Virus record (IMG/VR): IMGVR_UViG_3300033571_021301
Span: 1-26,450 of that record
DNA length: 26,450 nt
Strand: one strand, 5' to 3'
DNA from: a virus
A model generated the notes under the pieces. That model made no database searches. It saw only the letters and a program-made list of their open reading frames with translations, and was not told where the DNA came from. Made by a program: the position numbers and the translations under genes. Positions 1 to 26,450 of the stretch are shown piece by piece; position 1 is the stretch's first letter, and every line of letters starts with the position of its first letter.

Positions 1-33
1 ACAGGGAGAGGGAGTCCACCTGCCATATGACGA

Positions 34-477
34 TCAGGAGTGTATCAGAGAGCCGTATCGTGCGTAAGTGTCGTCAAGGTTGTGGGAAATGTAGATAATC
101 TCTTGATTTTTCACTACAGCCCACTCAACTCCGTGCCAAGTTTTTTCGGTTTCACGCTGCCAAATCTGACAGCCCCCTTCACCATCAATAACCACCCAAG
201 GATTCTCTCCCGGAGTTGTCATCTCAACCATTGGGCGAGAAAGCTTGCGCCTTCGATGCCTACCAGAACGTTCCGCTTCCGTTAGTCCACCCCAAATACC
301 TTCTTCACCTTCTCCAGCTGCGAGACAAGGCTCAATTACAGAACAGGTTTCGCATATGGCTTTTGCGCGAAGTTCCCGGATCTTGCGATCCATATGTTTC
401 TCTTCTTCTGATGGGAAAAACACCTGCGTGTCCTTGCCTCGGCAGGCGGCCTGTTCCATCCATCTCACGCAACGCAT
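34..477 (-). CDS. whiB: WhiB-family iron-sulfur transcriptional regulator
   Basis: A predicted [4Fe-4S] redox-sensing regulator that in Actinobacteria binds the principal sigma factor at promoters. The four cluster ligands are visible as Cys12, Cys42, Cys45 and Cys51 in the usual single-Cys then CxxC-x5-C layout. They are followed by the family turn GIWGG (residues 60-64) and a basic RHRRRK tail that contacts DNA. Trp6 before the first Cys matches the conserved W of the family, which supports the ATG at 477. Residues from about 85 to 147 form an extension with several Trp, absent from minimal WhiB proteins; I do not recognise it. No strong ribosome binding site is visible. A plus-strand gene diverges from it. 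Phage WhiB proteins are known to interfere with host WhiB or sigma-factor function, which is the likely role here. The family call is firm; the target is unknown. Confidence 0.93.
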   Translation of the reverse strand: MRCVRWMEQAACRGKDTQVFFPSEEEKHMDRKIRELRAKAICETCSVIEPCLAAGEGEEGIWGGLTEAERSGRHRRRKLSRPMVEMTTPGENPWVVIDGEGGCQIWQRETEKTWHGVEWAVVKNQEIIYISHNLDDTYARYGSLIHS

Positions 478-524
478 GGTACTACTAGCCGTTATTGGGT
501 GCGGAACATGGTACTTTTTTGGCT

Positions 525-812
525 ATGGCCGTAAGACACTACACATATAACCTCACCGCAACGCCACAAGAACTGACTGGCTTGATTTCAACTGATCGCA
601 AGCGACGTATCAGCCTTGTTTTTAACACCGATAAAAACAGCAACGACACAACAATGATCGGTGCATCCACCGTTACGGCAACCGATTTCGGTTTTCACCT
701 TGATGCCGATGAACAATTTGTTCTTGAAGGCTGGTTTACCTCAACTGATCGGTTCTATGCTCGCGCAAAAACCACTACAGCCATTCTGCATGTTTTGGTA
801 GCCGGGGCTTAA
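525..812 (+). CDS. Small beta-rich hypothetical protein, possibly virion structural
   Basis: This is the only convincing plus-strand gene. An upstream in-frame TTG at 495 exists, but the ATG at 525 gives a 95-residue protein beginning MAVRHYTYNL that looks more natural. The sequence is rich in Thr, Val and alternating hydrophobics (ATPQELTGLIS, MIGASTVTAT, AILHVLVAGA), which suggests a small all-beta fold. Proteins of this look occur near capsid and tail genes of aquatic phages, so a capsid decoration or fibre role is possible, but I cannot name a family. Its TAA (810-812) overlaps the stop of the convergent glutamine amidotransferase (809-811). It may be the tail end or start of a rightward operon, or an isolated gene. 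No clear promoter is visible in the 47 bp separating it from whiB. Confidence 0.6.
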   Translation: MAVRHYTYNLTATPQELTGLISTDRKRRISLVFNTDKNSNDTTMIGASTVTATDFGFHLDADEQFVLEGWFTSTDRFYARAKTTTAILHVLVAGA

Positions 813-1615
813 AAACCGTAAGCACGATCCATACGATCAACCAAGGACAGAGGGCGATGAGGAGCAGGGGATTCCCATTCCCACACCAATTCTTCTTCCT
901 CACCATCAAGGGCAAGCATTCGTTTCTCAACGATCTCACCCTTGACAACCTTGAGATACATGCCCTCAGGCACTTCCCACACATCAACTAAACCAACATA
1001 GGCTTCACGACACGCATCACTCAAGATCTGTTTCGTTGAAGCGAACACCAAAGAACCGTTCCTTGTGTGACCGACCCACAATGGTGAACCATCCAAGCGA
1101 GCAAGGTGCATCGTTTTTGGATCATTGGCTTCATACCAACCGATTGCGGCACGACCCCACAGTTCGCCTAAACGGTTGAGATCATCAATGTTGGCGAGCA
1201 GTTGAAAGATGGCTTCTGAGTCCACCTGAGCGATTCTTTCCACGCCAAGTGCCTCGAATATCTCATCATCGTTGCTGATGTGGCCGTTGTGAACACCAAT
1301 GATTCCGGGAACGACAATTGGGTGGTTGTTGTCAGGGTTGGATTTGTCACCTTTGGTCGCATAGCGAGCGTGTAGCAACGCTGTGCGAGTGTATTTGGGG
1401 ATCAGGCTGATGTTTCTGTCCACGAAACGATCCGCGTTTACAGGTTCTTTTGCGTAAAACAGTTCCACGCCTTCTTCCGTGTTCTCTGACCAAACAGCAC
1501 CTGTCGCATCACGACCTCGGCTTTGGATTTGACGTAGGAGTTTGTCCGAGAGCAGTCGTGTCCGAATGACACGGTGATCCTTGTCGCTGATACTGAATCC
1601 TGCGATACCACACAT
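809..1615 (-). CDS. Class II (Ntn-hydrolase) glutamine amidotransferase
   Basis: A stand-alone glutaminase domain that should release ammonia from glutamine for a partner enzyme. The N-terminus MCGIAGF places the nucleophile Cys2 at the mature N-terminus after Met removal. Other family motifs are in order: SRGRDATG (32-39), HARYAT (82-87), the HNGH oxyanion/substrate loop (109-112) and DSEAIF (132-137). At 268 aa it carries the glutaminase domain only; no synthetase or isomerase domain as in PurF, GlmS or AsnB is present. The start has a perfect Shine-Dalgarno (AGGAGGT) lying inside the last codons of the upstream amidoligase gene, two bases after its stop, so the two are co-translated. The obvious partner is that amidoligase, which would use the ammonia to amidate a carboxylate. 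Substrate unknown. Confidence 0.92.
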   Translation of the reverse strand: MCGIAGFSISDKDHRVIRTRLLSDKLLRQIQSRGRDATGAVWSENTEEGVELFYAKEPVNADRFVDRNISLIPKYTRTALLHARYATKGDKSNPDNNHPIVVPGIIGVHNGHISNDDEIFEALGVERIAQVDSEAIFQLLANIDDLNRLGELWGRAAIGWYEANDPKTMHLARLDGSPLWVGHTRNGSLVFASTKQILSDACREAYVGLVDVWEVPEGMYLKVVKGEIVEKRMLALDGEEEELVWEWESPAPHRPLSLVDRMDRAYGF

Positions 1616-1617
1616 TG

Positions 1618-2712
1618 TTATTGACCTCCTGTAAGGGCTACTGCTCTTGCTTTTAGATATTCCTTGTCTGCCTCGGTGAAGAGGTTTTGTTTCGTGTCTA
1701 GTGGCTTTACGAGTGTGTCAAGCACACCGAACATTTCGCCACTTTCGTTCTCCAATTCTTTTTCAGCTGCGGTGAAGTCCACGAATGCGATCAGGAACTT
1801 GACCCAAGCAGAGATTTTCTTGGCGTTCAAAGAACCTTGGTGCAAACGCACTTCGTAAGTGCCTGCCTTTGGGAATGGCGTGATGTTCAACGATGAGGTT
1901 CGGTTGACTTGGGTTCTATCCGGGTCACGACCTGCCAAGATCAGTTGTTGCCATCTTGTTACTTCGGCAGGAACAACCGTCTTGCAGTAAGCGTTTGTCC
2001 AACGGCTACGAGAAACGAAGTGTTTGATCATGGTTTCGTTTGCGTACCATCGACCCACAAGTTCTGCTCGTTGCTCTTTGGTCATATCGCGAACACCGAG
2101 GTGAACATGAAGACCGCAACTTCTGCTAACTCCACCACCTGCCTCTTTGATCGCTTTCATCACCTTTTTGATTTGAGCGAAACCATCTTCGCCTTGAAGA
2201 ATTGGTGAGATCACTTCGCCACCTGTGTAAACAGAACCGTCACGCTCAACTTTCCATTCCGTGTAACCACTCACTTGTGCGTTGCAGGTTTCGCAAACTC
2301 TTCCGTGATACGGAAGCACGTGAATGTGTTGAACACCGAGAGCGAGAGCAACTTTTTCTGCCACGATACGGCGATCCATGTTGACATATTCAATTTCAAC
2401 ACCGAAGGTGCGAAGCGAAGTTTGTTGAACTTGTGGGTTCAAGATTCTTTGTACTGCACTTGGTTGAACGTTGAATCGGCGTTGCGCGGCTAAACGACCT
2501 GCCTGTGATCTGCGAGGGTTTGGTGCAGTCAATGGTGGCAGGTTGTTTACTCTTGCGTGGCGTGAAGCCGAGAGGCGAGCGGTTGACTCGTTGTTGAATT
2601 GAAGTACTTGGGTGATGAACGCCCAAGATTCTCCTGAAATAACTCTGAGGTGATAAGCCTCTCTGTCACGATCCACTTGGGTAAGTGGTCTTGCTGGTGA
2701 GATTGTCGGCAT
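1618..2712 (-). CDS. Amidoligase (glutamine-synthetase-like COOH-NH2 ligase)
   Basis: A predicted ATP-dependent ligase joining an amine or ammonia to a carboxylate, of the Amidoligase_2 type. Motifs in order: FGVEIEY (103-109), a TEWKVERDGS strand (151-160), GGEVISPIL (164-172) and the metal/ATP-site CGLHVHLG (199-206). Residues 1-95 form a separate basic region with a possible helix-turn-helix (RDREAYHLRVISGESWAFI), an unusual addition. CETC (140-143) may bind metal. The gene is preceded by AAAGGA ahead of ATG, a 5' hairpin and a strong promoter. It is followed immediately by the glutamine amidotransferase, a pairing known from phages and proposed in surveys of the superfamily to modify peptides or cell-wall stems. 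Which molecule is modified cannot be read from the sequence. Confidence 0.88.
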   Translation of the reverse strand: MPTISPARPLTQVDRDREAYHLRVISGESWAFITQVLQFNNESTARLSASRHARVNNLPPLTAPNPRRSQAGRLAAQRRFNVQPSAVQRILNPQVQQTSLRTFGVEIEYVNMDRRIVAEKVALALGVQHIHVLPYHGRVCETCNAQVSGYTEWKVERDGSVYTGGEVISPILQGEDGFAQIKKVMKAIKEAGGGVSRSCGLHVHLGVRDMTKEQRAELVGRWYANETMIKHFVSRSRWTNAYCKTVVPAEVTRWQQLILAGRDPDRTQVNRTSSLNITPFPKAGTYEVRLHQGSLNAKKISAWVKFLIAFVDFTAAEKELENESGEMFGVLDTLVKPLDTKQNLFTEADKEYLKARAVALTGGQ

Positions 2713-2724
2713 CTCATTCCTTTC

Positions 2725-2746
2725 TGTAAGACTCCCTTGCCTTACA
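2725..2746 (-). promoter_or_regulatory. 5' leader hairpin upstream of the amidoligase gene
   Basis: On the transcribed (minus) strand the leader begins TGTAAG, a 10-nt loop GCAAGGGAGT, then CTTACA: a 6-bp stem at or next to the predicted transcription start. The second promoter of this type (see 3777-3797) has the same loop but a stem TGTCAG/CTGACA, so an A-T pair is replaced by C-G on both arms. That covariation argues for a selected structure. The function could be transcript 5'-end stabilisation, a protein-binding site, or a DNA operator; the sequence does not decide. Confidence 0.6.
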
Positions 2747-2752
2747 TATAGA

Positions 2753-2784
2753 AGTATAGGGGCGAAACTAGCCCTAGGTCAAGT
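2753..2784 (-). promoter_or_regulatory. Sigma70-like promoter P1 for amidoligase-amidotransferase operon
   Basis: Minus strand: -35 TTGACC (2782-2777), an 18-bp spacer, and -10 TATACT (2758-2753). The -35 overlaps the stop codon of the upstream zincin gene. The stretch from about 2754 to 2784 is identical to that of promoter P2 (3803-3834), including the whole spacer, which is more conservation than a simple promoter needs and suggests a shared regulator or recent duplication. Confidence 0.8.
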
Positions 2785-3211
2785 CAGCCATTTCTATGTG
2801 GAAAATCTTGCCCTCGGCAACCAGCCTCTCAAACGACCTTGGGGCGACCTTGTAATACAAGGAAAGCGACCAAGCCCTCGCATCAGGTTCTACGTCGGTT
2901 TCGCGACCTGAGAAGCCTTTGGCTTTGTTGTGCCGTTGAAGAGCGTGGCGAAACTCATGGATCACGGTCACCATTGAAGGCTTGCTCATATGAATGGTGT
3001 TGCTTGGTAAATGGTAATAACCGCTTCCAGCTGCGACTCCCTCAATGATCACAGGCATTGGAATGTCATATTCGAGCGAGGCTTTCTGTACCCATTCCTG
3101 CATTTTGATCCACTTCCGGGAATCATTGCACCTGCCCCAATCTTTCATCATCACCTTCGTGATGGCGAGTGTGTTGGGCTTAAAGTTGTTGAACTTTTTG
3201 TGATATCTCAT
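2774..3211 (-). CDS. Zincin-like metallopeptidase (HExxH)
   Basis: A 145-residue protein with a clear zinc-protease helix: VIHEFRHAL, with H85, E86 and H89 as predicted zinc ligands and catalytic base. It is followed about 20 residues later by an acidic stretch with VEPDARAWS (107-115) that could supply the third ligand. The preceding YYHLPSNTIHMS resembles the strand leading into the active-site helix in small zincins. There is no signal peptide or membrane segment, so it should act in the cytoplasm. I cannot place it in a named peptidase family. Its ATG overlaps the stop of the 34-aa micropeptide gene (ATGA), so the two are translationally coupled, which makes the micropeptide a candidate substrate or partner. 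Its stop lies within promoter P1. Confidence 0.75.
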   Translation of the reverse strand: MRYHKKFNNFKPNTLAITKVMMKDWGRCNDSRKWIKMQEWVQKASLEYDIPMPVIIEGVAAGSGYYHLPSNTIHMSKPSMVTVIHEFRHALQRHNKAKGFSGRETDVEPDARAWSLSLYYKVAPRSFERLVAEGKIFHIEMADLT

Positions 3212-3312
3212 TGGTGATCATCACAGTTGCAGTCAGGTTCACACACATTTTGCGCGAACTCTTCCAATACGGACATTAAAAGCATTTGTTGCTCTTGTTC
3301 TTCTTCAGTCAT
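3208..3312 (-). CDS. 34-residue acidic, Cys-rich micropeptide
   Basis: A short reading frame that I translated directly. It opens MTEEEQEQQMLLM and ends with three closely spaced cysteines (NVCEPDCNC) and DDHQ. It is supported as a real gene by its exact fit: its ATG overlaps the stop of the upstream 61-aa gene (TAATG), and its TGA overlaps the ATG of the downstream zincin gene (ATGA). The N-terminal half is Glu/Gln-rich and could form a helix; the C-terminal half could bind a metal or form disulfides. It lies in the operon of a metallopeptidase, next to an amidoligase and amidotransferase, so it could be a substrate for peptide modification. That is inference. It could equally be a small regulatory protein. 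Confidence 0.65.
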   Translation of the reverse strand: MTEEEQEQQMLLMSVLEEFAQNVCEPDCNCDDHQ

Positions 3313-3497
3313 TATTTCACTCCGATCACTTTTGAATTGATTATGACACCTTCGTGCATCACAAGGTTGGCGTAATAGGTTTTCTTACCATTTGGCCGCT
3401 TCACCGAGGCGCAATGAGTCCAACCGTTTCGTTGGTGCATCCAATCTGCTTCAACTAATTGAAGCAACTCCCAATCTTGACCGTCTTCGTTAAACAT
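3312..3497 (-). CDS. Hypothetical 61-aa protein
   Basis: A longer frame reaches 3563, but the ATG at 3497 overlaps the stop of the upstream zinc-ribbon gene (TAATG), giving a 61-residue protein starting MFNEDGQDW. Its stop likewise overlaps the ATG of the 34-aa gene. The protein has a Trp/His-rich centre (EADWMHQRNGWTHC) followed by RPNGKKTYYANLVMHEGVII, which looks like a small beta domain. No family recognised. Its place between a zinc-ribbon protein and the micropeptide in a fully coupled operon indicates co-expression with them. Confidence 0.7.
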   Translation of the reverse strand: MFNEDGQDWELLQLVEADWMHQRNGWTHCASVKRPNGKKTYYANLVMHEGVIINSKVIGVK

Positions 3498-3766
3498 TAT
3501 TTTTTCCCCTCCATTTCCAATGCTTCCGCATATTCTTCTTCTGTCGTGGTAATAGTTCCACAAAGGATCAGAATGGCTCTTTCAAATTGCAATTCGCCAT
3601 CTCGCACTAAACATTGATGTGCAGGTCTAAAACTTTTGATACCGCGGCCACTTTCACCAACTACTTCAACCGCTTCATCGTAAGTGAGATACCACTTCCC
3701 GGATTTGGATTGTCTCCAAACAAGGTCGTTTCTGCCACACCTTTTGCAAGTGACCGATTTTGCCAT
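3497..3766 (-). CDS. Small zinc-ribbon-like protein
   Basis: An 89-residue protein with an N-terminal CKRCGRNDLVW motif (CxxC, residues 7-10), a KWYLTYDEA strand and then HQC near residue 50, consistent with one zinc site made of CxxC plus H/C. Proteins of this kind are common in phages and have no known function beyond presumed nucleic-acid or protein binding. The C-terminus is acidic and helical (TTTEEEYAEALEMEGKK). The gene is the first after promoter P2 and its leader hairpin; GGAGGAAA precedes the ATG at a good distance. The downstream genes overlap it in series, so it heads an operon with the 61-aa, 34-aa and zincin genes. Confidence 0.75.
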   Translation of the reverse strand: MAKSVTCKRCGRNDLVWRQSKSGKWYLTYDEAVEVVGESGRGIKSFRPAHQCLVRDGELQFERAILILCGTITTTEEEYAEALEMEGKK

Positions 3767-3776
3767 TTTCCTCCTC

Positions 3777-3797
3777 TGTCAGACTCCCTGCCTGACA
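3777..3797 (-). promoter_or_regulatory. 5' leader hairpin upstream of the zinc-ribbon operon
   Basis: Minus strand: TGTCAG, a 9-nt loop GCAGGGAGT, then CTGACA. It is the second copy of the element at 2725-2746, with the loop nearly identical and one stem base pair changed on both sides. It sits where transcription from P2 should begin and ends 11 nt before the start codon, after which comes the GGAGG ribosome binding site. Confidence 0.6.
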
Positions 3798-3802
3798 AGA
3801 CG

Positions 3803-3834
3803 AGTATAGGGGCGAAACTAGCCCTAGGTCAAGT
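3803..3834 (-). promoter_or_regulatory. Sigma70-like promoter P2 for zinc-ribbon/zincin operon
   Basis: Minus strand: -35 TTGACC (3832-3827), an 18-bp spacer identical to P1, and -10 TATACT (3808-3803). It begins just after the stop of the upstream 111-aa gene (3839-3841). Duplicate of P1. Confidence 0.8.
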
Positions 3835-3838
3835 AGCC

Positions 3839-4174
3839 CTAGATTTGCGCTCGAACATTGGCGTTCAGGGTTCTCAACGCATCAACCGACGTGCGAAGCG
3901 ACAACAATTTTTCCCTCTTCGCCTTTACCAAAGCCTCAGCGATCTTGAACTGATACATCGTGTCCGACATAGCCAAATCTGCAACTGCTTCCCGGTTACG
4001 AATAGAACCCTCAGCCTGAAGATATGCCTTCGCCCACATCGCTTTGTGTGTTGCCTCGGTTTCAGCTGCTCTTTGAGCAAGAACTTCAAACTCTTCTGTG
4101 TCGGCTTCCAAGTTGGAAAGCAGACGCATGATCTCTTCTTCTATCTGTCCTTGTGTGATTGGGCCGTTTCTCAT
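3839..4174 (-). CDS. Hypothetical coiled-coil protein, 111 aa
   Basis: The open frame extends upstream, but the ATG at 4174 overlaps the stop of the HTH gene (ATGA), giving a protein starting MRNGPITQGQIEEEIM. It is almost entirely helical, with heptad-like spacing (EEFEVLAQRAAETEATHKAMWAKAYLQ split over two helices, then REAVADLAMS and KIAEALVKAKREKLLSLR). No catalytic motif is seen. Similar small helical proteins occur in the early regions of actinophages without assigned function. It is translationally coupled to the HTH protein, so it may work with it. Its stop lies next to promoter P2. Confidence 0.7.
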   Translation of the reverse strand: MRNGPITQGQIEEEIMRLLSNLEADTEEFEVLAQRAAETEATHKAMWAKAYLQAEGSIRNREAVADLAMSDTMYQFKIAEALVKAKREKLLSLRTSVDALRTLNANVRAQI

Positions 4175-4422
4175 TCTTCCGGGTGCTTTCGTAGATCTGC
4201 GAATAATGCTTGATCCGTGACACCACAAGCATCAGCGATCTGACGATAAGGAACTCGTTTCTCGCGCAAACGCCGAACAACTTTTCGCCGCTGTTTGCCT
4301 AGGCGCACAACTGACTGTTGGTGTTCTCGCATCATCTGTGTGAGTAAACGACATTTCTCTAAATCGTCTTGTTCGCTTTCATGCTTAATGGTGTCATCGT
4401 TGATAACAATGTTTGGTTCCAT
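4171..4422 (-). CDS. Helix-turn-helix DNA-binding protein
   Basis: An 83-residue protein. The C-terminal half reads as a basic helix (RRKVVRRLREKRV) followed by YRQIADACGVTDQALFADL, a good sigma-region-4/homeodomain-like helix-turn-helix. The N-terminal 30 residues are acidic. This is a common type of small regulator in actinobacterial phages. The ribosome binding site GGAGGGG lies two bases before the ATG. A TATAAT sequence (4447-4452) upstream could be its -10 element, but I see no matching -35. The gene overlaps the following 111-aa gene by ATGA. Confidence 0.75.
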   Translation of the reverse strand: MEPNIVINDDTIKHESEQDDLEKCRLLTQMMREHQQSVVRLGKQRRKVVRRLREKRVPYRQIADACGVTDQALFADLRKHPEE

Positions 4423-4446
4423 AACCCCTCCGACCGTGTTGGGCCG

Positions 4447-4452
4447 ATTATA
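4447..4452 (-). promoter_or_regulatory. Possible -10 box (TATAAT) upstream of the HTH gene
   Basis: A perfect TATAAT on the minus strand, placed so transcription would start about 18 nt before the HTH gene's ATG. There is no recognisable -35 at 16-18 bp and no TGn extension (it is preceded by a run of C), so it would need an activator. Weak call. Confidence 0.35.
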
Positions 4453-4463
4453 GGGGGGTAGTG

Positions 4464-4859
4464 TTACGCCTCTAGCGAGCGAAGATATGCGTCACCTTTG
4501 GCGGTGATTTTGCAGATTCTTTGCAGTTCACCTGCCGTAGATTTAGCAAAATCTCCTGTTGGAACGATAAAGCCCATCGCACGTAGTTCTGAGCAACGCT
4601 TCCAGTAACAGCAACGAGGTTTCAGAGCAAGCCCGGTGAACATTCCTACCTCTTCATCGGTGAAGCCTCGACCGCTACCGAAAGCTTTGAGAATGATTAC
4701 CTGTTGCGATGGTGAGCGTTTGACCGCACCTTTCGCTGCTTTCTTGCTAGTGACTGGATCAGAGTTTCTGAAGAGCGGAATGATTGTCGCATTCACTTCT
4801 TCTTTCTTTCCCCCTAATCCGTTAGATGGATGGAATAGTTGTCCTTGTTCCCGGTTCAT
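4464..4859 (-). CDS. Winged-helix-like phage protein with DPVTSKKAA motif
   Basis: The frame is open to a TTG at 4874, but the ATG at 4859 has AAGGAG at ideal distance, giving 131 residues from MNREQGQLF. Residues around 35-50 contain RNSDPVTSKKAA, a motif seen in many phage proteins ahead of a winged-helix domain. The rest (PSQQVIILKAFGSGRG, DEEVGMFTGL, SELRAMGFIVPTG, ICKITAKGDAYL) matches a winged-helix pattern ending in the usual 'T.kG..yl' segment. It is probably DNA-binding. It overlaps the 3' end of the RusA-like gene by about 38 bp. The exact biological role of this family is not known to me. Confidence 0.75.
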   Translation of the reverse strand: MNREQGQLFHPSNGLGGKKEEVNATIIPLFRNSDPVTSKKAAKGAVKRSPSQQVIILKAFGSGRGFTDEEVGMFTGLALKPRCCYWKRCSELRAMGFIVPTGDFAKSTAGELQRICKITAKGDAYLRSLEA

Positions 4860-5244
4860 AAAGTTCTCCTTCAACTTTTATGGTGATTTTGTTTTCCTTT
4901 TGTCTTGATGGCGCATGAAATGAGATCGTTGTTACGTGATCTCCTGTGTCATCAGGAAACAAATTAGCATCAACCATTCCGTCAATCGCTGCTTTTACTG
5001 CTGGCATACAGGCTGCGGTGTCCTGTAATCGCCCCTTTAGTTCAAGGGTGACCTCGACTGTTGCATCTGTAAGGGTGGTGTTTGGGCTGAGGGTGGCGAA
5101 ATGTTCTCTCCACATTTTTGTGTTCTTGGCTCGTTCCCAACGGTTGCCTGCTCGTTCCGCGTTCACAGTCCAAGGTCGCATCCACACCTCAAAGGTGAAC
5201 ACCTGCCTGTAACCACTTGTTGAGGCTGTCACCTTGGATTCCAT
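4822..5244 (-). CDS. rusA: RusA-like Holliday junction resolvase
   Basis: A predicted endonuclease that resolves branched recombination or replication intermediates before packaging. The protein (140 aa, near RusA's usual ~120) has the N-terminal MRPWTVNAERAGN...W strand region and the diagnostic catalytic pattern CMPAVKAAIDGMVDANLFPDDTGDHV (given here as positions 78-103): a conserved Lys and Asp in the helix, then the paired Asp (DD) before xxxxHV. The usual DxxN at the start of this helix is changed (TAACMP), as is common in actinophage relatives. It follows the HNH gene by 9 bp and overlaps the winged-helix gene. The start at 5244 lacks a strong ribosome binding site; an internal start before FEVWMRPW is possible. 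Confidence 0.72.
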   Translation of the reverse strand: MESKVTASTSGYRQVFTFEVWMRPWTVNAERAGNRWERAKNTKMWREHFATLSPNTTLTDATVEVTLELKGRLQDTAACMPAVKAAIDGMVDANLFPDDTGDHVTTISFHAPSRQKENKITIKVEGELYEPGTRTTIPSI

Positions 5245-5253
5245 TGACCAAGA

Positions 5254-5616
5254 CTACTTTTCAGGTTTGCGTAGCAAGCCTTTACTCATCGCCTCTGCCG
5301 GGTTCGCATGAACATATTGGTGACATGCCGTGCATAAAGCCAAAAGGTTTGAAGGATCGTGGCCGCCACCTTGAGATCGGCGCAACACATGATGCACGGC
5401 TTCTGCTTGTCCAGTACACACCTGTAACCGTGCTTCGCATACGCCTTGGCTTCGTTCGGCCACCACTTTCCGGGATTTAACTAAAGCCCCATCGGTTTTG
5501 ACACGTCGCTTTATTGGCTTGCGTTTGATCGGTTTCTGTGACCTTTTGAGAGGTGTGCGCTTGAGAGGCTTTTTAGGCTTCAAGTTCGATGGTGGCTTTC
5601 CCTTGCTCCAACGCAT
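5254..5616 (-). CDS. HNH endonuclease
   Basis: The C-terminal half has the treble-clef HNH core: CEARLQVC, then AVHHVLRRSQGG, DPSNLLALCTACHQYVH. The two CxxC-like pairs should bind structural zinc and the paired His the catalytic metal. The first 45 residues are a basic repeat (KPKKPLKRTPLKRS, KPIKRKPIKRR) of the type found on phage HNH proteins of this class and probably binds DNA nonspecifically. I chose the ATG at 5616; a TTG further down (about 5586) is a possible alternative, since no start has a clear ribosome binding site. It overlaps the upstream helicase-loader-like gene by about 44 bp. Many phage HNH proteins act in packaging, but this one lies among replication and recombination genes. 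Confidence 0.85.
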   Translation of the reverse strand: MRWSKGKPPSNLKPKKPLKRTPLKRSQKPIKRKPIKRRVKTDGALVKSRKVVAERSQGVCEARLQVCTGQAEAVHHVLRRSQGGGHDPSNLLALCTACHQYVHANPAEAMSKGLLRKPEK

Positions 5617-6938: not shown

Positions 6939-6961
6939 ACTTCCTGAAACTTACCTTCCGA

Positions 6962-8675: not shown

Positions 8676-10604
8676 TTAAAGCTGCTCCACCTGCCATATT
8701 TGTTTTGCGATCCACTTTGCCACCGGGGTAGCAACTCCATTTCCACACATTTTGTATCTGTGGGTATCCGACATTGGCGAACCATCAGCCTTGAAAGCCG
8801 TATGGTGCAACGGCCATCCCATCAGTAACTCGCATTCTGAAGGCGTAAGGCGACGTACCGCCATCTGTGGCTCACCATCATGTAACTGAATATGAGGCTC
8901 GTTATCTCCACGCTTAGATTCCGCTCGAAGAGTAGGAACTGTTCCTTCCCAAACACCGCCACCTAAACGCACCATCGTTCCGGGTTGAAACACCGTTGGC
9001 TCATCAACGGGCTGTGCCACGAAATCGCTGCTATCACGACCAACCCTTAACGAGCGATGAATCCCGGAATCATCAAGTTTCTGGTTATATCCGTCATACA
9101 CCACAGGCTCAGTAATGAACATTTGGGCATGGTGCGACTGTGGGCTTGGCCGTAAACCAGTCAACGCATTAGCCGTATCTAATTCTGTAGCCGAGAAAGT
9201 GTTTGCCTTAGCGTCTTCACGAACCGAATAAGCGACTGAAGGTGACTGTTGGCTTGCTTTCAATGTTGGTGAGCAGTCCTCGGTGACGTTCGCATTAGAA
9301 CCAAACTGTGTATCAAAAGCCAAAGGAACAGCAACCATCGGCGTGTTACCGCCACCTGTACCCATCTTCGCTGACAAGGTTTGAGTAACCCCATCTTTTG
9401 AAATCCGCGCACCATCACGATAAGAGTTTTCAAACAGGACAGTCGCATCCTCAACAATGGCAATGCCACCTTGATTCAGACTTGGATCAGGCTTCCAAGT
9501 ATCCAAAGTTTTAGCCACATCAACCTCGTTTACGCCGCTATCCGGGTTAGAGGATTTCATTGAGTTAGACGACAAAGAATCAAACGCATAGACAGTTTGC
9601 TCAACAATTACATGAGCCGAATCTGTTGTCTCTGTTCCCCTCGGCCCAGAACCACTCTTTGCGGTCAAAGGGCCGACAGTATCCGAATAAATAACAGCGG
9701 TTGTTGTCCGAGTGTCTCCCACATCAAACGCATTCAATGTCGGAGAAACCTCACCTTCAATCCAAGTCTCATCGTCAGTAGCTGACTGCGCTCGGCGCGA
9801 CTTCACAAACAGCGATGGATTTTCTTCAATGACCGCTTGAAGACGTTGCTTATCAGGCATTCTTTGTAGATCCGATGTGGTGGTCAGCGAATCCGCTACT
9901 TGTCCACCGTTCCACCATTCACTTGATCCCTCTCTTCCGGGGGCAACAATTCCACTCTCATCTCCAACGCCTTCTGTAAGCGTTCTGGCAGAACCTTTCC
10001 TCTTCGGTTTGCCCTTCTCAAAATGCCTTGGCAAGCTTTCGGAGACAGGTAATAACGGGTCGGGACACTTTGCGGCGGTTGCAGGATCGAACTGAGAGAT
10101 GAGCCAAATGCGTCTTCTGCGTTGGGGGATTCCGAAAAAGCGCGCATCCAACATAGCGTATTCTTGGAGAACCGCCCCTGCTTCTGCCATTTCATTGATG
10201 ACTGTTGCAAAATCTCTTCCATTGTTAGAAGTGATTGCTCCTGCGACGTTTTCCCAAACTGTCCATCGGGGAAAAGCTCCATTTGTGACATAACGCATCT
10301 CCTTGATAATTCGTACTGCTTCGTGAAATAAACCTGATCGTGAACCTTCCAACCCGGCGCGCTTTCCAGCAACTGAGAGGTCTTGGCACGGGCTGCCAAA
10401 AATTATGATATCTACAGGCGGTAAAAACTTTCCGTCAACAGCAGAAATGTCACCCCACTTTTGAACATCAGGCCAATGCCTATCTAACACGCTTCGACAG
10501 TTCTTATCCCACTCCACTTGGAACTTGCATTCCGCGTAAGGGTCAAAACCCATATCAAAACCGCCCACCCCGGAAAAGAGGCTGCCGTACGTTAGTTGTT
10601 TCAT
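8676..10604 (-). CDS. DNA (cytosine-5) methyltransferase with expanded target-recognition region
   Basis: Transfers a methyl group from AdoMet to C5 of cytosine in a specific DNA site. Conserved motifs (numbered from the ATG at 10607): LFSGVGGFDMGF (I, 10-21), SPCQDLS with catalytic Cys74 (IV), WENVAGA (VI, 118-124), PQRRRRIW (VIII, 161-168), RRLTPSECELLMGWP (IX, ~585-599) and YKMCGNGVATPVAKW (X, ~618-632). The target-recognition region between VIII and IX is about 400 residues, several times the normal size, and contains about ten recurring 'xxTLxA' units. Two ATGs are adjacent; the second (10604) has better spacing from GGGAGG. It stands alone behind its own promoter, with no restriction enzyme nearby, so protection from host restriction is the likely role. 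It may relate to the CCSGG pattern in this genome. Confidence 0.93.
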   Translation of the reverse strand: MKQLTYGSLFSGVGGFDMGFDPYAECKFQVEWDKNCRSVLDRHWPDVQKWGDISAVDGKFLPPVDIIIFGSPCQDLSVAGKRAGLEGSRSGLFHEAVRIIKEMRYVTNGAFPRWTVWENVAGAITSNNGRDFATVINEMAEAGAVLQEYAMLDARFFGIPQRRRRIWLISQFDPATAAKCPDPLLPVSESLPRHFEKGKPKRKGSARTLTEGVGDESGIVAPGREGSSEWWNGGQVADSLTTTSDLQRMPDKQRLQAVIEENPSLFVKSRRAQSATDDETWIEGEVSPTLNAFDVGDTRTTTAVIYSDTVGPLTAKSGSGPRGTETTDSAHVIVEQTVYAFDSLSSNSMKSSNPDSGVNEVDVAKTLDTWKPDPSLNQGGIAIVEDATVLFENSYRDGARISKDGVTQTLSAKMGTGGGNTPMVAVPLAFDTQFGSNANVTEDCSPTLKASQQSPSVAYSVREDAKANTFSATELDTANALTGLRPSPQSHHAQMFITEPVVYDGYNQKLDDSGIHRSLRVGRDSSDFVAQPVDEPTVFQPGTMVRLGGGVWEGTVPTLRAESKRGDNEPHIQLHDGEPQMAVRRLTPSECELLMGWPLHHTAFKADGSPMSDTHRYKMCGNGVATPVAKWIAKQIWQVEQL

Positions 10605-10628
10605 CATTTCCTCCCAAAAGGTTCCCTC

Positions 10629-14014: not shown

Positions 14015-14019
14015 TATTA

Positions 14020-17843: not shown

Positions 17844-17845
17844 TT

Positions 17846-19143: not shown

Positions 19144-19146
19144 AGG

Positions 19147-19521: not shown

Positions 19522-19529
19522 AATGACTC

Positions 19530-19796: not shown

Positions 19797-19829
19797 AGTG
19801 CGCCTATCTTATGTAACGGAGATAAAGCA

Positions 19830-19857
19830 TTTATATATAGTGGCGATTAGTTATCAA
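19830..19857 (-). promoter_or_regulatory. Promoter P4 for the tail-appendage operon
   Basis: Minus strand: -35 TTGATA (19857-19852), 16-bp spacer, -10 TATAAA (19835-19830), in AT-rich DNA between the minor tail protein and the small tail genes. The -35 overlaps the final codons of the upstream gene, as for P1 and P3. Confidence 0.55.
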
Positions 19858-21556
19858 GGGTATTTGTGTCCAATAAGCCCTTGGTTACGCTGTCCAAAAT
19901 GACCACCGAACTATTCAAACCTGTAGCGGTCGATGCCCCAACCCCTGACCCTATGGCTGTTCTAACCTTGTCACTAATCCAAGTTGCCGTATCTCCAGCA
20001 GTTGCCCCACCACCCCCGGAAGCGGTCACGAAACGATAGTTGTACTCACCCAACGCATTTGTGTCCAACAAACCAGTCGTAGCATCGTCTAAGCGCAAAA
20101 GAGCAATAATTTGCCAATCACCTGTTCCTGTTGATGTGCCAGAACCTGTTGCTGTTCTTAGTACAGTTCTCAAACCATCACTTGAAGAAGATCCAGTACC
20201 GTCACCTGTCGCATCACGCGGAGCAATATGCAAGCCCGTAGCCGAATCCCCGGCAGTAGCCGACCCAGAACCGACAGCGGTGCGGTCAGCGATATGCAAA
20301 CCAACAGCCGTACCCCCTGATGTGCCTGACCCGGTAGCTGTTCTAGTGAATGTCTCAAACGAAGCAGGAGCAAGCTTGTAGGAGACAGTATGGCTTTGGG
20401 CCGTAATCACATGCTCAATATGTTCAATAGTGACGTTCTGATAGATGGTGGAAGGGCTGCCAATAGCATAAGTTTTAAGCACTCGAATATCAGAACCGAT
20501 ATCAAGATCAATGATCTGTTGCTGTTCAGCAGGAGACACCAAAGCCCCGGCAAACTGGACTTCCAAACCGTCAAAACGGTAACTAGGAATACTGTAAAGA
20601 GACAGCAAATAATCCGCTAAATCTTGTGCATCCGAGTCAGAACACAACAAATTGTTTACCGAAAGAGCTGCGATACCAAAAGTAGATTGGCTAGTCGCAT
20701 CGTCAGCCACTCCGGGGTTGATTGAGTCAATTGGCGTACAGATAACACGGTTGTAGAGGTTTTCTTGCCCATAAACAATGGACAATCGGTTGTATTCGCT
20801 TCCAACCCCATCATCGCTGAAATAGTGGTCAATCGTTGGTGATCCTGTGACGCGACTGCCAAAGAAAAGTGTTCCATCACCCTTGACAACCAAAACGCCA
20901 CGTTCTGTGGCCGCTACAGCTTGCAACGCATCTAAAGCCCTTGTGCCAAAGGCAATAGGGTCATCAAGACAGGTAATAGTTCCTGACTCAATATCTGTCG
21001 TACCTGAAAACCCGATTTCCGGGAGATCCAAAATCGCTGAAACTCTTGCGCCGCTTAACTGGCTAGTTGGCAAATACTCATCCAAATACGCATTCGCCAA
21101 CAACACGAAATCATCGGCCACATCAATAGTCACCGTTGACCGCGTTATCGGTGAACTTGTTGGATCATAAGAAATATCAATATCGGTAATTCGACCTGTA
21201 AAAATCGCTGTGCTGCCATAATAAACGGTCACTTTGCGGCGAATCGTGACACCAGAAGTATCGGTTACTGGGTCGTAATAGCGAGATTGAGTGTTTTTAG
21301 GGTCTAATTCACGGTCATTATTGGTCAAAACCAAGGTCATAATCCCGGCTTGAAAATCCTGAAACTGGTCATGGCGACCGCGAGAAATGCGTATTTCCTG
21401 AACTCGATCAGTAATGTCATCTGTCGTTCTGCCATCCAAATAGCAGTTTCCACCCAAAACACCTAACGATGAGTCATCTAGGGTGAACTCGTTTGAGGGT
21501 AAAGCGAGATCTGCCAAAACACTATAAGTACCGCCCCAAGGCATTAACTGTGGCAT
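19847..21556 (-). CDS. Minor tail protein (tail tip/hub) with C-terminal repeats
   Basis: A 569-aa protein directly after the tape measure (two bases between stop and start), the usual place for the distal tail or tail hub protein. The first ~390 residues form a beta-rich body with DITDRVQEIRISRGR, LVLTNNDRELDPKN, a RRKVTVYYGSTAIFTGRITD strand pair and HVITAQSHTVSYKLAP at the end, all typical of actinophage tail-tip proteins. Residues ~400-569 contain degenerate repeats of 'GLHIAxRTAxGSGxxxAG' type and a LLDTN motif twice (TTGLLDTNAL, TKGLLDTNTL), which look like shaft or display repeats. It probably joins the tail tube to the receptor-binding fibres encoded next. Confidence 0.8.
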   Translation of the reverse strand: MPQLMPWGGTYSVLADLALPSNEFTLDDSSLGVLGGNCYLDGRTTDDITDRVQEIRISRGRHDQFQDFQAGIMTLVLTNNDRELDPKNTQSRYYDPVTDTSGVTIRRKVTVYYGSTAIFTGRITDIDISYDPTSSPITRSTVTIDVADDFVLLANAYLDEYLPTSQLSGARVSAILDLPEIGFSGTTDIESGTITCLDDPIAFGTRALDALQAVAATERGVLVVKGDGTLFFGSRVTGSPTIDHYFSDDGVGSEYNRLSIVYGQENLYNRVICTPIDSINPGVADDATSQSTFGIAALSVNNLLCSDSDAQDLADYLLSLYSIPSYRFDGLEVQFAGALVSPAEQQQIIDLDIGSDIRVLKTYAIGSPSTIYQNVTIEHIEHVITAQSHTVSYKLAPASFETFTRTATGSGTSGGTAVGLHIADRTAVGSGSATAGDSATGLHIAPRDATGDGTGSSSSDGLRTVLRTATGSGTSTGTGDWQIIALLRLDDATTGLLDTNALGEYNYRFVTASGGGGATAGDTATWISDKVRTAIGSGVGASTATGLNSSVVILDSVTKGLLDTNTLDN

Positions 21557-21557
21557 G

Positions 21558-24500
21558 TTACTGAGTCTTTACAGGTATTTTGCCGTTACGTCGTTGGTAG
21601 CGAATCAGCTCATTAACAATCGCATCACCAATAGAAGCACCATCAGCCCCCATCCCGGCGTTCACCGTGATATTGATTGGTTGGCCACCGCCCATCATCC
21701 GCTCCAAACGATCCATAGGGATAATAGCTTCTGGACCCTTTTCGCCAATCATGCCGATCTGCGGCGAAGTGATCAGGCCGCCTTTCGCATGGGTCAAACC
21801 TTGAGCCTTGAAAGCCGCGTAAAGGTTCGGGAAAGCAATCTTTGCTGAAGCAACAGGCGTACTTGACTTCAATGCCCCTGCTTCCGGGTGAAGATCTCGG
21901 ACAGCAGAAATGAAAGAACCGTACTTGCCAGAAGCTGCAACGGCTTTAGCGGCTGAAATCTTATCAGCAACCGTTTTTGGCGGTGCGCCTGTAGTTGCGT
22001 CTTTTCCAGCCAAATCAGTCAACTCAGGGATAGTTAAGTCAGGCATGGAATCTTGCAACGCTTCCAATCTTGCTTCCAAACCATCAACAAGTTTCTGAGC
22101 CAAAGCAATACCAGCATCATAGAAAGTTGAACCAAGCAAAGTCTTGAGATTTTCAGCCGTTTCAAGCAACGAGTTTTCAATCTTTGTTGACGTTGCAACA
22201 GCCTCAGAACCGCCATCCAACAAGGCTTGCGCGATCTCTGAACCAGCCTCAACACCAGCATTAAGAACCTGCTGGATAGCACCCGGAGAGAAACCAGCAG
22301 CAATCAGTTGCTTAATCTTCTCGGCAAAAGCAGTCGCATTCTGAGCCTGTGCAGCCAACGCCGCAATGAAATCAGCACCAACTCGATCACCAACCTTGAA
22401 ATACTGGTCAGCAACCTTCAAACCAGCCTTCTCTGAAACCTCGCCAATCTCCGTAAACAGTCTGTTTGTCTCAGCAACAGCAGCCGAACCACCAGCAATC
22501 AGTTCATCTGCCATCAAACCGCCCGTAACAGCACCAGCCTGAATAATCTGATCCATACCATCTTTAGACAAGCCCATCGTCAACAACTGTTGAATCTTGC
22601 CTGCAAAACCCTTTGCCTGCTCAACCTGAGCGCGTAACTGATCCAAGAACGAAATCTGTTTCGCCTGAGCAGCCGAAGCCTTATCAGTCGCATCAGCCAA
22701 AGCTTCTTGCGCCGGGATCAGGTCAATAGCAGCCTTTTGGATTTCCTCAAAAGCCTCACGGCGAGCCTTTCGACCAGAAGCGTTTGAATACTTATCAATC
22801 GCATCATTGAACTTTTGGTTGGCAGTATCGGCCATGTCCTGTGCTTTAGCAAGGTTCTCGTTAGCCGTAACAAGATCCTGTGCGGCTGACTGTTGCTTAG
22901 AAATAGCGTCAGACATGCTCAAAATAGACGAAATTGAATCCCCAACAGACTTGGCATAATCATCATGGATTTGCCTTGCTTCCTCAATCTTTTCGTTGTA
23001 TTCGTCAGCCTTTTGTTTAGCGACAGACATAGCATTGCCGAAATCAAAAGCACCCATAATCGCGTCATCAGTAGCCGATCGAAGAGCATCCAGCTTGGCT
23101 TTCAACTCTTCCAACTTCTTAGAAGCCGCCTCAATAGCAACGTTGTATTTCTTGGTGATCTGCTCAATCAACTTCTCTTTTTGCTTCTGCAACGCTTTAT
23201 CAGCATCCCCGGCTTTCTTAGACGCATCGCTTACTCGCGTCAAACTTCCAGCAACAGAGTCATAAGCCTTAGATTCCTTCTCCAAAACAGCCAAAGTCGC
23301 ATTCAACTGAGCCAAATAGCGAGCTTGAGTATCGTCACGCGACTTAGCAGGGTTCATCAACTCCAAAGCCTTGACAACAGCAGCGATCTTTTCCTTCACC
23401 CCGGTGATATCGGCATCAATCATCACCTTTGTGCGAAGACCTGACAGGAGGTTCATTGACTCCAAAATCGCGTTAATCTGCTCATCGGTAGCCTTACCAG
23501 CCTTTGCTGACCTGATAAAGCCTTCAATCATCACCGAACTAGCAGCGGCAATCTCTTCCTTACCCTTGCCCATGTTATACATGGCCGCTGAGTTCTTGTT
23601 GATCTGCTCAAACAGGTCAAAACCAGCACTCGTTAACGAATCAAAGTCTCCACGTGCAGCTTTAGCAGCATCTTGCACACCAGTCATCGCCTCGCGCATC
23701 TCATACCAAGTCTTCGCATTGGCAACAGCGTCATAGTTCTCGATACCAAACATGGCTTTAGCCATTTCCTCAGCCGTAGCCTTGCCATCCTCGGCGGCAG
23801 CCTTAAACTCCTTCAAACGGTCAATCATCGTGGAAACAGCCATCTCAGCCTTTTCAGTTTCCTTAGCAACCTTCTTCTCTGCATCAGAAGTCTTATTTAG
23901 TTCTTTACCGACCGCATTCAAAATATCCAAATATGTTTGGTCTGTTGCCACTTTCCCAGCAGCTTTCAACTCAGCTTCCGTTGTGGCCTGAATGTTTCTG
24001 ACAATCTGTGCTTCTTCCTTACCTAAAGCAACAACCGCGTCTAAGTGACCCTGAACGAAATCTTTGATACTGGTTTTCTCTGCCTGATCATCAAGTTCTT
24101 CAATCTGTGCAGCAAGATCTTTATATTGAGCTGATACTTCACCGATAACAGTACCGTTGTCGTCATATGCACTAACAGCACTTGCAATATCTTTTGCTCC
24201 CGCAACACTTGCACCAGCCATAATTGCCATCGCATAAGCAGCGTCATAAGAGCTCTTATTGAAAGCCATCAAAGTAGGAATAGCGTCTTCTTGGCTGGCG
24301 TTCACATAGTTCAAAGCAGAAGATAGTTTTTCTCCATCTTCCCCGGTTTTAAGAATCGTTTTTCCAAGTTGCTCCGTAGAAGACAAATACTGAGACAATG
24401 CTTCTTTATTTTTCTTCAAACTAGCGACTTGTGTATCAATAGCCTCAGTTAATGCTTTAGTACGTTCCTCAACCTGTTTATTACGGTTAGAGAATGCAGT

Positions 24501-26141
24501 AAATATCTTGAAAACAGCGTAAAGGGCAATTGCGATCAACAACATCGGAAGCACCGAAGCCATAAAGTTGAGAGCCGCAGTTTTCATAGCCATAAAGCCC
24601 TGAACGGTCATAGCCGTGAAAGCCTGCATCCCGGTAGCACCAAATCGACTAGCGGTAGCAAAATACTCCACCATCCCGGAAGCAAACATCGTGGCTTTAC
24701 CAAACAACATTTGTGCGGTAGTCGCCGTACCTGTAGCAATCGCACTCTGGGCTGCAGCAACCTTCTGCATTACCAAAGCGGCAACAAACTTGACACCAAT
24801 GAGGATAATTAAAGGCTCAAGCAAAGGCCCCATCATCTCAAGCACAGAAGCAAACGCATAGAACGCGCCAGAAACAACTGTAATAACCCCTGCAAGTGGC
24901 CCAGCCAACACCTCAACAATGCTTGAAATGCCTTCCAAAATCGCTTCTGCAGCCCGACCAATAGCCTTGCTGAACTTAAGGAAAGCAGGAACTAATGGAA
25001 CTGCAGCCTTCGCTACGCGAGAAAAACTGTCTCGAAGTTTAGGGTTCAAAGCAACAAGCACACCGATACCAGCAACTACCGGGTTCAAACCGCCTGCCAA
25101 GCCCTTCAAAGGTGTCATTAGCAAAAGACTCTTACCAGCCATCGTTGTTATAGCGGTTGCGGCAGCCATCAACATTGGCGTGAACTTGCTAATGGACTCT
25201 CCTAATCCATCAACATCAAGTTTCGCATCTTTGAAGTTTTTAATCATTGCGGCTAACTTCTCAATACCAGCCGTAAATGGGGCAAACAGCATCGTCATAG
25301 CGGTTGTCAACTCGCTAACAACTGGATATAAAGCCCCGCCTTCACGAAGTAACTTTGAAAACCCGGAGAACAAGTCATATGAGGCTTTAATCATTGGGCC
25401 GAAACCAGCAAGCAACGCATTACCCATCGCCACCTGCATATCGTTCACAATTCGAGGGAACGAACGTAGAACCTTTCCGGGTTCTTGCATGGCCGCCGTG
25501 TAAACACCAGCAACCTTTGCACCTTCATCCATGATCAGGTTGATAATTGCCTGTTGACGCTCTTGAGCGTTCAAAGTGTTTGAGGTTTTACCGATTTCTA
25601 ATGCGTAACGGGCATAACCTGCTGAAGCTTGCTCTGAAACACCAGCAGATTTGAGCAACATACTGTTACCCGTTTTGATAGCACGGGTCAGAATCATTGC
25701 CGTATCGGTTGAGTTCTTTTGCGAAATAACCGCCAAGTCCTGTGCTACACGCGCAACTTTGGAGGCTTCAGCCATATCAAGGTTGCCTTGAGCAAACTCA
25801 ATAGCCATCTGCTGTGCGGCAGCCATCTCAATACCGTTGTCACGGATGGCGTTAGCAGCCGATTTAATGTTTTTTGCACCGATCCCGGTGGACTTACCAA
25901 TCGCATCAATAGCGACGTTCAACTCCGAAACACGGGCGGCAGCTTGGAATGATGCTTTGCCCCATTTGACAAGGGCAAAAGCAGCACCACCAATAACAGC
26001 CCCGGCAGCGACTAAGCCTTTATTTACGCCACCAACGGTTTGATTTAACTGATTTGCAGAGGATGAGGCTTGTTGAAAAGCCTTGGTGAAGCCATCGTCA
26101 ATCGCACGTAAGTGCGCTATAACTTGGATATCTTCGGCCAT
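21558..26141 (-). CDS. Tail tape measure protein
   Basis: At 1527 aa it is the longest gene here and sets tail length (by the usual ~1.5 angstrom per residue, a tail of roughly 230 nm). The N-terminal part has the characteristic VAAGAVIGGAAFALVKWGKA and a phage-tail domain (DLAVISQKNSTDTAMILTRA, KSAGVSEQASAGYARYALE). Hydrophobic segments in the middle include VLPMLLIAIALYAVFKIF and PLLEPLIILIGVKFVAALV. A long coiled-coil region covers about 900-1200. The C-terminus has the family ending GGLITSPQIGMIGEKGPEA and IIPMDRLERMMGGG. A strong ribosome binding site (AGGAGGTGA) precedes the ATG and lies in the end of the frameshifted chaperone T. Confidence 0.97.
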   Translation of the reverse strand: MAEDIQVIAHLRAIDDGFTKAFQQASSSANQLNQTVGGVNKGLVAAGAVIGGAAFALVKWGKASFQAAARVSELNVAIDAIGKSTGIGAKNIKSAANAIRDNGIEMAAAQQMAIEFAQGNLDMAEASKVARVAQDLAVISQKNSTDTAMILTRAIKTGNSMLLKSAGVSEQASAGYARYALEIGKTSNTLNAQERQQAIINLIMDEGAKVAGVYTAAMQEPGKVLRSFPRIVNDMQVAMGNALLAGFGPMIKASYDLFSGFSKLLREGGALYPVVSELTTAMTMLFAPFTAGIEKLAAMIKNFKDAKLDVDGLGESISKFTPMLMAAATAITTMAGKSLLLMTPLKGLAGGLNPVVAGIGVLVALNPKLRDSFSRVAKAAVPLVPAFLKFSKAIGRAAEAILEGISSIVEVLAGPLAGVITVVSGAFYAFASVLEMMGPLLEPLIILIGVKFVAALVMQKVAAAQSAIATGTATTAQMLFGKATMFASGMVEYFATASRFGATGMQAFTAMTVQGFMAMKTAALNFMASVLPMLLIAIALYAVFKIFTAFSNRNKQVEERTKALTEAIDTQVASLKKNKEALSQYLSSTEQLGKTILKTGEDGEKLSSALNYVNASQEDAIPTLMAFNKSSYDAAYAMAIMAGASVAGAKDIASAVSAYDDNGTVIGEVSAQYKDLAAQIEELDDQAEKTSIKDFVQGHLDAVVALGKEEAQIVRNIQATTEAELKAAGKVATDQTYLDILNAVGKELNKTSDAEKKVAKETEKAEMAVSTMIDRLKEFKAAAEDGKATAEEMAKAMFGIENYDAVANAKTWYEMREAMTGVQDAAKAARGDFDSLTSAGFDLFEQINKNSAAMYNMGKGKEEIAAASSVMIEGFIRSAKAGKATDEQINAILESMNLLSGLRTKVMIDADITGVKEKIAAVVKALELMNPAKSRDDTQARYLAQLNATLAVLEKESKAYDSVAGSLTRVSDASKKAGDADKALQKQKEKLIEQITKKYNVAIEAASKKLEELKAKLDALRSATDDAIMGAFDFGNAMSVAKQKADEYNEKIEEARQIHDDYAKSVGDSISSILSMSDAISKQQSAAQDLVTANENLAKAQDMADTANQKFNDAIDKYSNASGRKARREAFEEIQKAAIDLIPAQEALADATDKASAAQAKQISFLDQLRAQVEQAKGFAGKIQQLLTMGLSKDGMDQIIQAGAVTGGLMADELIAGGSAAVAETNRLFTEIGEVSEKAGLKVADQYFKVGDRVGADFIAALAAQAQNATAFAEKIKQLIAAGFSPGAIQQVLNAGVEAGSEIAQALLDGGSEAVATSTKIENSLLETAENLKTLLGSTFYDAGIALAQKLVDGLEARLEALQDSMPDLTIPELTDLAGKDATTGAPPKTVADKISAAKAVAASGKYGSFISAVRDLHPEAGALKSSTPVASAKIAFPNLYAAFKAQGLTHAKGGLITSPQIGMIGEKGPEAIIPMDRLERMMGGGQPINITVNAGMGADGASIGDAIVNELIRYQRRNGKIPVKTQ

Positions 26142-26145
26142 TTAA

Positions 26146-26340
26146 TCACCTCCTGCGTTTGCTTGCTTGTTCAGCCTCGTAAGCCCTTAACTTGTATAGG
26201 GCGGCCCACTCGACTATTTCGGCAGAGGTGATTGGGAGATGGGCAGGTGAGCCGTACAAAAGTTCAGCCACCGTGCGCCCCAACTTCTCCGCTAGTTCGA
26301 AGAGGAACCGCCGTTCTGTGTTGATGAGGAGTCTTTTCCC
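26146..26340 (-). CDS. Tail assembly chaperone, frameshift extension (T part)
   Basis: This frame has no proper start; it is entered by a -1 shift at G_GGA_AAA (26340-26334) from the upstream chaperone. After the slip it reads GKRLLINTERRFLFELAEKL, then GRTVAELLYGSP, ITSAEIVEWAALYKLRAYEA and a basic end. The 'iTs.E..eW.alY.l' motif is typical of the T extension of actinophage G-T chaperones. The 65-codon extension ends five bases before the tape measure start. In lambda and many siphophages the G and G-T products in set ratio wrap and fold the tape measure protein. Confidence 0.85.
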   Translation of the reverse strand, partial: GKRLLINTERRFLFELAEKLGRTVAELLYGSPAHLPITSAEIVEWAALYKLRAYEAEQASKRRR

Positions 26341-26450
26341 GCTACATCAATGGCATCAGCACCAAAACCCGACAATCGCATAGCGACCGTGTTGATCTTC
26401 TCCAACGCCGCGCCATTCTTGGACATGATGGTGTCCTTGTCAGCGTGGGT
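26292..26450 (-). CDS. Tail assembly chaperone G (partial, upstream part outside window)
   Basis: The zero-frame gene enters from the right edge and reads THADKDTIMSKNGAALEKIN, TVAMRLSGFGADAIDVAGKD, then a Ser/Asn-rich tail ending at TAG (26292-26294). Only the last 52 codons are in the window, and the true start is not visible. The heptamer G_GGA_AAA is in the correct phase of this frame 13-15 codons before the stop. Position just before the tape measure gene gives the identity. Confidence 0.8.
   Translation of the reverse strand, partial: THADKDTIMSKNGAALEKINTVAMRLSGFGADAIDVAGKDSSSTQNGGSSSN
26334..26340 (-). other. -1 programmed frameshift site
   Basis: Minus strand GGGAAAA, in zero-frame phase G_GGA_AAA, a canonical X_XXY_YYZ slippery heptamer. 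It joins the G frame to the T frame. Confidence 0.85.

Follow-up and report, generated by a model that had tools for sequence, protein, structure and literature searches.

The closest described counterparts of the enzyme considered here are the multispecific DNA cytosine-5 (C5) methyltransferases of Bacillus phages, including M.SPRI, M.H2I, and their relatives (Noyer-Weidner, Trautner, and colleagues, cited in PMC8936443); for the SPR methyltransferase a triple specificity is named in a reference of PMC8936443. The 643-aa enzyme of the present phage is likewise phage-borne and combines one catalytic domain with tandem putative target-recognition domains; unlike the triple specificity named for SPR, about nine cassettes are present, and, unlike those of the Bacillus-phage enzymes, they are widely exchanged among freshwater phages. 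The Bacillus-phage enzymes protect several palindromic targets at once; here the same property is suggested by the motifs that are present in one branch of phages and absent in its sisters. If the enzyme protects CCSGG and not CCGG in general, this target would, to our knowledge, be new among multispecific phage C5 enzymes. CCSGG is the recognition sequence of Type II systems of the NciI, BcnI, and CauII type, the same sequence that is retained in this phage.

A second term of comparison is restriction avoidance, for which a systematic study describes a contrast in site avoidance between coliphages with and without a DNA hydroxymethylase (PMC6286503). As in that study, so far as its passages on avoidance go, palindromic Type II sites are fully lost and relief is found in relatives that modify, or here would modify, their DNA; unlike there, the avoidance is context-dependent, a site being tolerated only as part of a longer motif, and the returned sites are evenly spaced, a feature absent from the same passages.

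The window, that is, the whole 26,450-nt stretch of DNA analyzed, belongs to a freshwater phage and contains 69 CCGG tetramers (36 CCCGG and 33 CCGGG), every one inside CCSGG; by exact count CCCGGG, DCCGGH ([AGT]CCGG[ACT]), and CCWGG are all 0, where an order-1 Markov model predicts 43 DCCGGH, 29 CCSGG, and 47 CCWGG. The sequence-only reading, made by eye, had reported about 68 such sites, all nested, and a lack of CCWGG; both patterns turn out to be exact, although several of its example positions are off by 1–5 bases. The phage's complete genome (G001, 61,480 bp) is circularly permuted relative to the window and 99.97–100% identical to it; window positions 1–13547 correspond to genome positions 47934–61480 and 13425–26450 to 1–13026, so that the ends of the record overlap by 123 bp and close it. 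In this genome, 175 of 175 CCGG lie within CCSGG, and neither DCCGGH nor CCWGG occurs. Synonymous-codon shuffles, in which proteins and codon usage are preserved, give 105 DCCGGH (minimum 75), 60 CCSGG (maximum 77), and 79 CCWGG (minimum 61); DCCGGH and CCWGG therefore fall far under a codon-preserving null, as in restriction-site avoidance. The claim that unprotected CCGG has been purged holds for DCCGGH and fails for the tetramer as a whole, the total of 175 standing against 162 ± 10 expected from the shuffles: since CCSGG is at 2.9 times its neutral level, total CCGG is undepleted and it is the flanks that are altered instead. Other motifs are also scarce in the genome, namely CASTG (3 vs. 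79) and GGWCC (9 vs. 54), both against the codon-preserving shuffle, and GGACG/CGTCC (1 vs. 72 expected). In the window alone, CASTG, a TspRI-type site, is found 0 times against 65 by Markov expectation and GGWCC once against 40. Palindromic hexamers are nearly all avoided in the genome, AAATTT, GAATTC, GCATGC, CCCGGG, and about 20 others being found at 0 or 1.

Relatives of the phage were found via the shared terminase, and comparing these sisters amounts to a natural experiment on one lineage, in which the multi-cassette enzyme is present in some members and absent from others. Outside the window branch, almost all terminase relatives are without CCGG of any kind; the near-complete sisters G015, G020, G023, G025, and G024 have 0 DCCGGH and 0 CCSGG. 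Almost all sisters outside the branch also have zero AGCT, GGCC, and ACGT and mostly zero GATC, with tens to hundreds of each expected, and those checked for PF00145 have either none or one enzyme of normal size (359–398 aa). The window branch combines 0 DCCGGH with CCSGG at 1.4–2.2 times the Markov expectation, a state that within the terminase lineage is found only in this branch and is shared by the relatives L001–L007, L257, L259, L265, and L269; in addition, ACGT, AGCT, GGCC, and TCGA are at 0.5–0.8 of expectation in the branch and absent in the nearest sisters (L261/L262). A second nested case is L026 (contig G2), with 1 DCCGGH, 67 CCSGG, and an enzyme 38% identical; its DNA matches the window only in the methyltransferase gene, and a few of its proteins are distantly related. 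Over 18 motifs, the purged fraction averages 0.46 in the terminase sisters vs. 0.06–0.10 in phages with longer cassette arrays, a contrast that resembles the hydroxymethylase contrast of coliphages described in the passages of PMC6286503 on this point; among carriers, array length and the fraction of purged motifs are not correlated (rho 0.10, P 0.42). The lineage is not uniform, since CCGG is kept both inside and outside CCSGG in L292 and L297, which are identical terminase relatives, and in L332. The sisters G015, G020, G023, and G025 (L345–L350, L360–L362, L364–L368) are about 60 kb long and free of CCGG; in G015 and G020, AGCT, GGCC, and GATC are missing as well and ACGT is scarce or absent, GTAC is missing in G015 alone, and CATG in G020 alone.

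The 643-aa enzyme is the sole C5 methyltransferase seen in the genome, and all the C5 catalytic motifs are located in it (F.G.G, PCQ, ENV, QRRRR, R.LT..E, and GN); its gene lies where the sequence-only reading placed it (8676–10604), with the end of the ORF at 10607. Motifs VIII and IX are separated by about 415 aa, a stretch made up of some nine short cassettes, most of which have a TL-type dipeptide; these cassettes recur in different orders and combinations among related enzymes of public viral contigs (Table 1); from their position and swapping, they would represent a tandem array of target-recognition domains. The enzyme is the likely candidate for the agent of CCSGG protection. No PF01555 (N4/N6) enzyme was found in the phage genome, nor was any other methyltransferase common to CCSGG-keeping phages. 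A search for the host by way of the enzyme found no relatives of it in bacterial genomes. A 191-aa methyltransferase-like protein with no Pfam or PHROG match (G001 46739–47314, minus strand) adjoins a ParB-like protein; it is excluded as the CCSGG protector because the CCSGG-free G005 carries the same protein at 74% identity.

Table 1. Positions in the window of the nested CCGG sites and of the methyltransferase gene with its motifs and cassettes
Feature	Position	Strand	Detail
CCSGG-nested CCGG set	1..26450	.	n = 69; first 210, last 26002
DNA cytosine-5 methyltransferase, 643 aa, candidate CCSGG protector	8676..10607	-	PF00145, E 1.7e-50
Motif IV SPCQDLS	10374..10394	-	catalytic Cys
Motif VI ENVAG	10239..10253	-	
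Motif VIII QRRRRIW	10104..10124	-	variable region begins
Cassette B	9825..9923	-	EWWNGGQVADSLTTTSD
Cassette C	9690..9824	-	ETWIEGEVSPTLNAFD
Cassette D	9597..9689	-	VGPLTAKSGSGPRG
Cassette E	9447..9596	-	SNSMKSSNPDSGVNEVDVAKTLDTW
Cassette F	9324..9446	-	ENSYRDGARI..TQTLSAKMGTGGG
Cassette G	9228..9323	-	DTQFGSNANV..SPTLKASQQ
Cassette H	9108..9227	-	REDAKANTFSATELDTANALTGL
Cassette I	9009..9107	-	DGYNQKLDDSGIHRSLRVG
Cassette J	8883..9008	-	FQPGTMVRLGGGVWEGTVPTLRAE
Motif IX RRLTPSE	8835..8855	-	variable region ends

This phage has cassette B where the relatives L002–L006, contigs with a known array, have cassette A (NAIGASLYHH), and CCWGG is kept by these cassette-A relatives and wholly lost here; the form of cassette C with NAFD occurs in 40 phages that retain AGCT and in 0 that avoid it. 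For CCSGG itself, neither presence or absence of cassettes nor peptide k-mers yielded one that cleanly tracks retention. Most single cassettes are excluded as the CCSGG reader because near-identical copies occur in CCSGG-purging phages: cassettes E to J are nearly unchanged there (E, for instance, in L051 and L233), and close forms of C are also present. Slot D is the exception among the branch-wide cassettes, all the others recurring in CCSGG-purging phages; it is filled by two different cassettes, the one of the window and, in L004, L005, and L007, GTLKARGHKG, both seen only in the window branch. As a CCSGG switch, the amino acid that precedes PTLN in cassette C (S/A vs. N) was also discarded, L096, L104, L128, and L071 having A and no CCSGG. 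Two further associations, of cassette R with even GATC spacing (P 2e-6 and 5e-4) and of cassette F with even CCNGG/CCWGG spacing (P 1e-6 to 8e-5) and fewer close CCNGG and CCWGG pairs, are suggestive, coming from many tests on phages of shared ancestry and with exceptions such as G2.

The sister contrast, the second nested case, and the change from cassette A to B with loss of CCWGG lead to acceptance, in outline, of the idea that CCSGG is protected; on these genome comparisons, protection of CCSGG and not of other CCGG in the window branch appears well supported. It is rather probable that restriction of CCGG by the host, together with a multi-cassette C5 methyltransferase modifying CCSGG, has readmitted CCGG only in the form of CCSGG. 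Host enzymes cutting CCGG, as well as ACGT, AGCT, GGCC, GATC, TCGA, and others, would restrict the phage lineage, most members of which would survive with none of the restricted sites. The window branch would descend from a phage that gained a multi-cassette C5 methyltransferase with CCSGG among its targets; CCGG within CCSGG may then have become safe and returned, CCGG in other contexts staying unprotected and absent. In addition, CCSGG sites lying at some distance from one another appear to be favoured by selection. We infer methylation of CCSGG, the 643-aa enzyme as its agent, the involvement of host enzymes, and an order in which loss came first and return followed. The nested exception, CCGG only in CCSGG, would thus point to the protection target of an uncultured phage from its sequence alone. 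The sequence-only reading, in which CCSGG is modified and other CCGG purged, agrees with the CCGG-free state of most sisters and with the confinement of the nested state to the methyltransferase branch; it falls short where CCSGG is kept without the enzyme, and a purge explains neither the 2.9-fold excess of CCSGG nor its even spacing.

CCSGG without the enzyme is found in G013 (60.5 kb; CCSGG 20 vs. 45 expected, DCCGGH 0) and G010 (55.8 kb; 18 vs. 49, DCCGGH 2), neither of which has a PF00145 or PF01555 enzyme, so part of the sparing may be host-side. In its full form this alternative, which we consider doubtful, attributes the pattern to a CCGG-specific defence that spares CCSGG, either because the host methylates CCSGG or because C/G flanks block the enzyme, with a separate CCSGG-specific enzyme clearing CCSGG from most sisters. 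It also agrees with a mirror image of the nested state, CCSGG at 0 or nearly so with other CCGG near expectation, seen in L009, L011, L014, L018, L020, L022, L027, L029, and more, which indicates that the pressures on CCSGG and on DCCGGH are separable; of the 94 contigs that carry related methyltransferases, 42 have purged CCSGG. However, CCSGG in G013 and G010 reaches only about 0.4 of its expected number vs. about 2.5 in this phage by the same measure, and ACGT, AGCT, GGCC, TCGA, and CCSGG differ together from the nearest sisters, which is better accommodated by one multi-target enzyme than by a separate host change behind every motif.

The excess of CCSGG goes beyond what protection requires. 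A null model that excludes DCCGGH and CCWGG predicts 100 ± 5 CCSGG in the genome against the 175 found, so protection alone leaves the counts unexplained. At the codon level, GGG follows Ala, Ser, or Thr NCC codons in 51 of 51 NCC-Gly pairs, GGG being 14% of Gly codons, and wherever CCG precedes a non-Gly GNN codon, the CCG is itself preceded by C. Individual CCSGG sites are conserved between this phage (G1) and G3 at 48%, with no conservation above the background of 48%; the excess is thus maintained by gain and not by retention of particular sites. Vsr-like repair was discarded as its origin, CTCGG being undepleted.

The sites are also evenly spaced. The gap CV in the window is 0.69 for CCSGG (P about 5e-4), 0.44 for ACGT, 0.47 for TCGA, and 0.55 for CGCG, vs. 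about 0.97 for random placement, and in 150 synonymous shuffles of the full genome it was never below 0.80. Pairs of the same motif within 100 bp are at 0.20–0.59 of expectation for these four motifs and pairs of different motifs at 0.87–1.10; by a hand estimate with a hard-rod model, ACGT, TCGA, and CGCG seem more regular than repulsion alone would make them at their density. The evenness persists though half of the CCSGG sites differ between G1 and G3, a comparison in which no clear signal of lost sites offset by nearby gains was found. In a scan across phages (threshold z < -2.5), even spacing was detected in 32 of 560 tests and 18 of 41 genomes carrying related, mostly multi-cassette enzymes, and there it is confined to ACGT, AGCT, CCGG, CGCG, GATC, GGCC, and TCGA; it was absent in the terminase sisters (0/197 tests, 0/19 genomes) and in the cultured controls lambda, T7, Waltz, Dallas, and CHVD5762 (0/74 tests, 0/5 phages). 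These seven tetramers are those most often lacking in the sisters, where loss of GTAC, TATA, CATG, TGCA, AATT, and TTAA is confined to individual genomes or pairs; even spacing therefore seems to mark motifs that are under host attack and whose retention the carrier phage can afford. A cost dependent on distance, borne by unprotected sites lying close together and due to two-site restriction enzymes or short-fragment loss, would explain the repulsion; it leaves the CCSGG excess unexplained.

CCSGG sites thus behave as if chemically protected and also wanted. We know of no restriction-avoidance model that predicts even spacing of readmitted sites, and a placement of protected sites that is both even and over-abundant is, as far as we know, new. 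It is tentatively proposed, at somewhat less than even confidence, that in carriers of related, mostly multi-cassette enzymes the palindromes erased from sisters are evenly spaced and repel only their own kind, with CCSGG in excess, and that the spacing of protected sites is a selected trait. If so, the targets of a methyltransferase could be read from genome sequence alone through that spacing. The even spacing suggests that the harm from restriction, or else the gain from methylation, varies with how far apart sites of one kind lie. A rival reading, which we judge improbable, takes CCSGG as a functional mark under positive selection, with sites wanted every few hundred bases and selected against in close proximity; they might serve as methylated self-marks that host systems read motif by motif, restriction setting only the flanks. 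The excess over both nulls, the invariant use of GGG after NCC, and a same-motif repulsion that outlasts the turnover of sites agree with it; against it, single sites are no better conserved than the background, and phages that bear DCCGGH without CCSGG show the same even spacing, so that CCSGG as such is not special. No reader system is known to us. A compositional or codon artefact has next to no chance of being the cause, the synonymous shuffles never coming near the counts or the spacing and terminase sisters of like composition behaving otherwise. Protection of CCSGG by the multi-cassette enzyme against host restriction is retained as the preferred reading.

As regards the host, matches of the terminase and exonuclease are mostly to phages of Actinomycetota. 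A short protein at window positions 34–477 (minus strand) has by eye the look of a WhiB-type regulator, which would fit an actinobacterial host. An amidoligase (PF12224; 1618–2712, minus strand) adjoins a gene at 809–1615 whose product starts with MCGIAGF and has the look of a class II glutamine amidotransferase; this gene pair (809–2712, minus strand) possibly modifies a small molecule or peptide. In T7, sites that all point one way escape a Type III enzyme dependent on sites in inverted orientation. An orientation of this kind is seen for CGCATC, found 105 times on one strand of the genome and 0 on the other (TCGCAT, 121 vs. 5), as would be expected of a phage evading such an enzyme; G3 is biased likewise (44 vs. 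0) and the sisters are without the bias.
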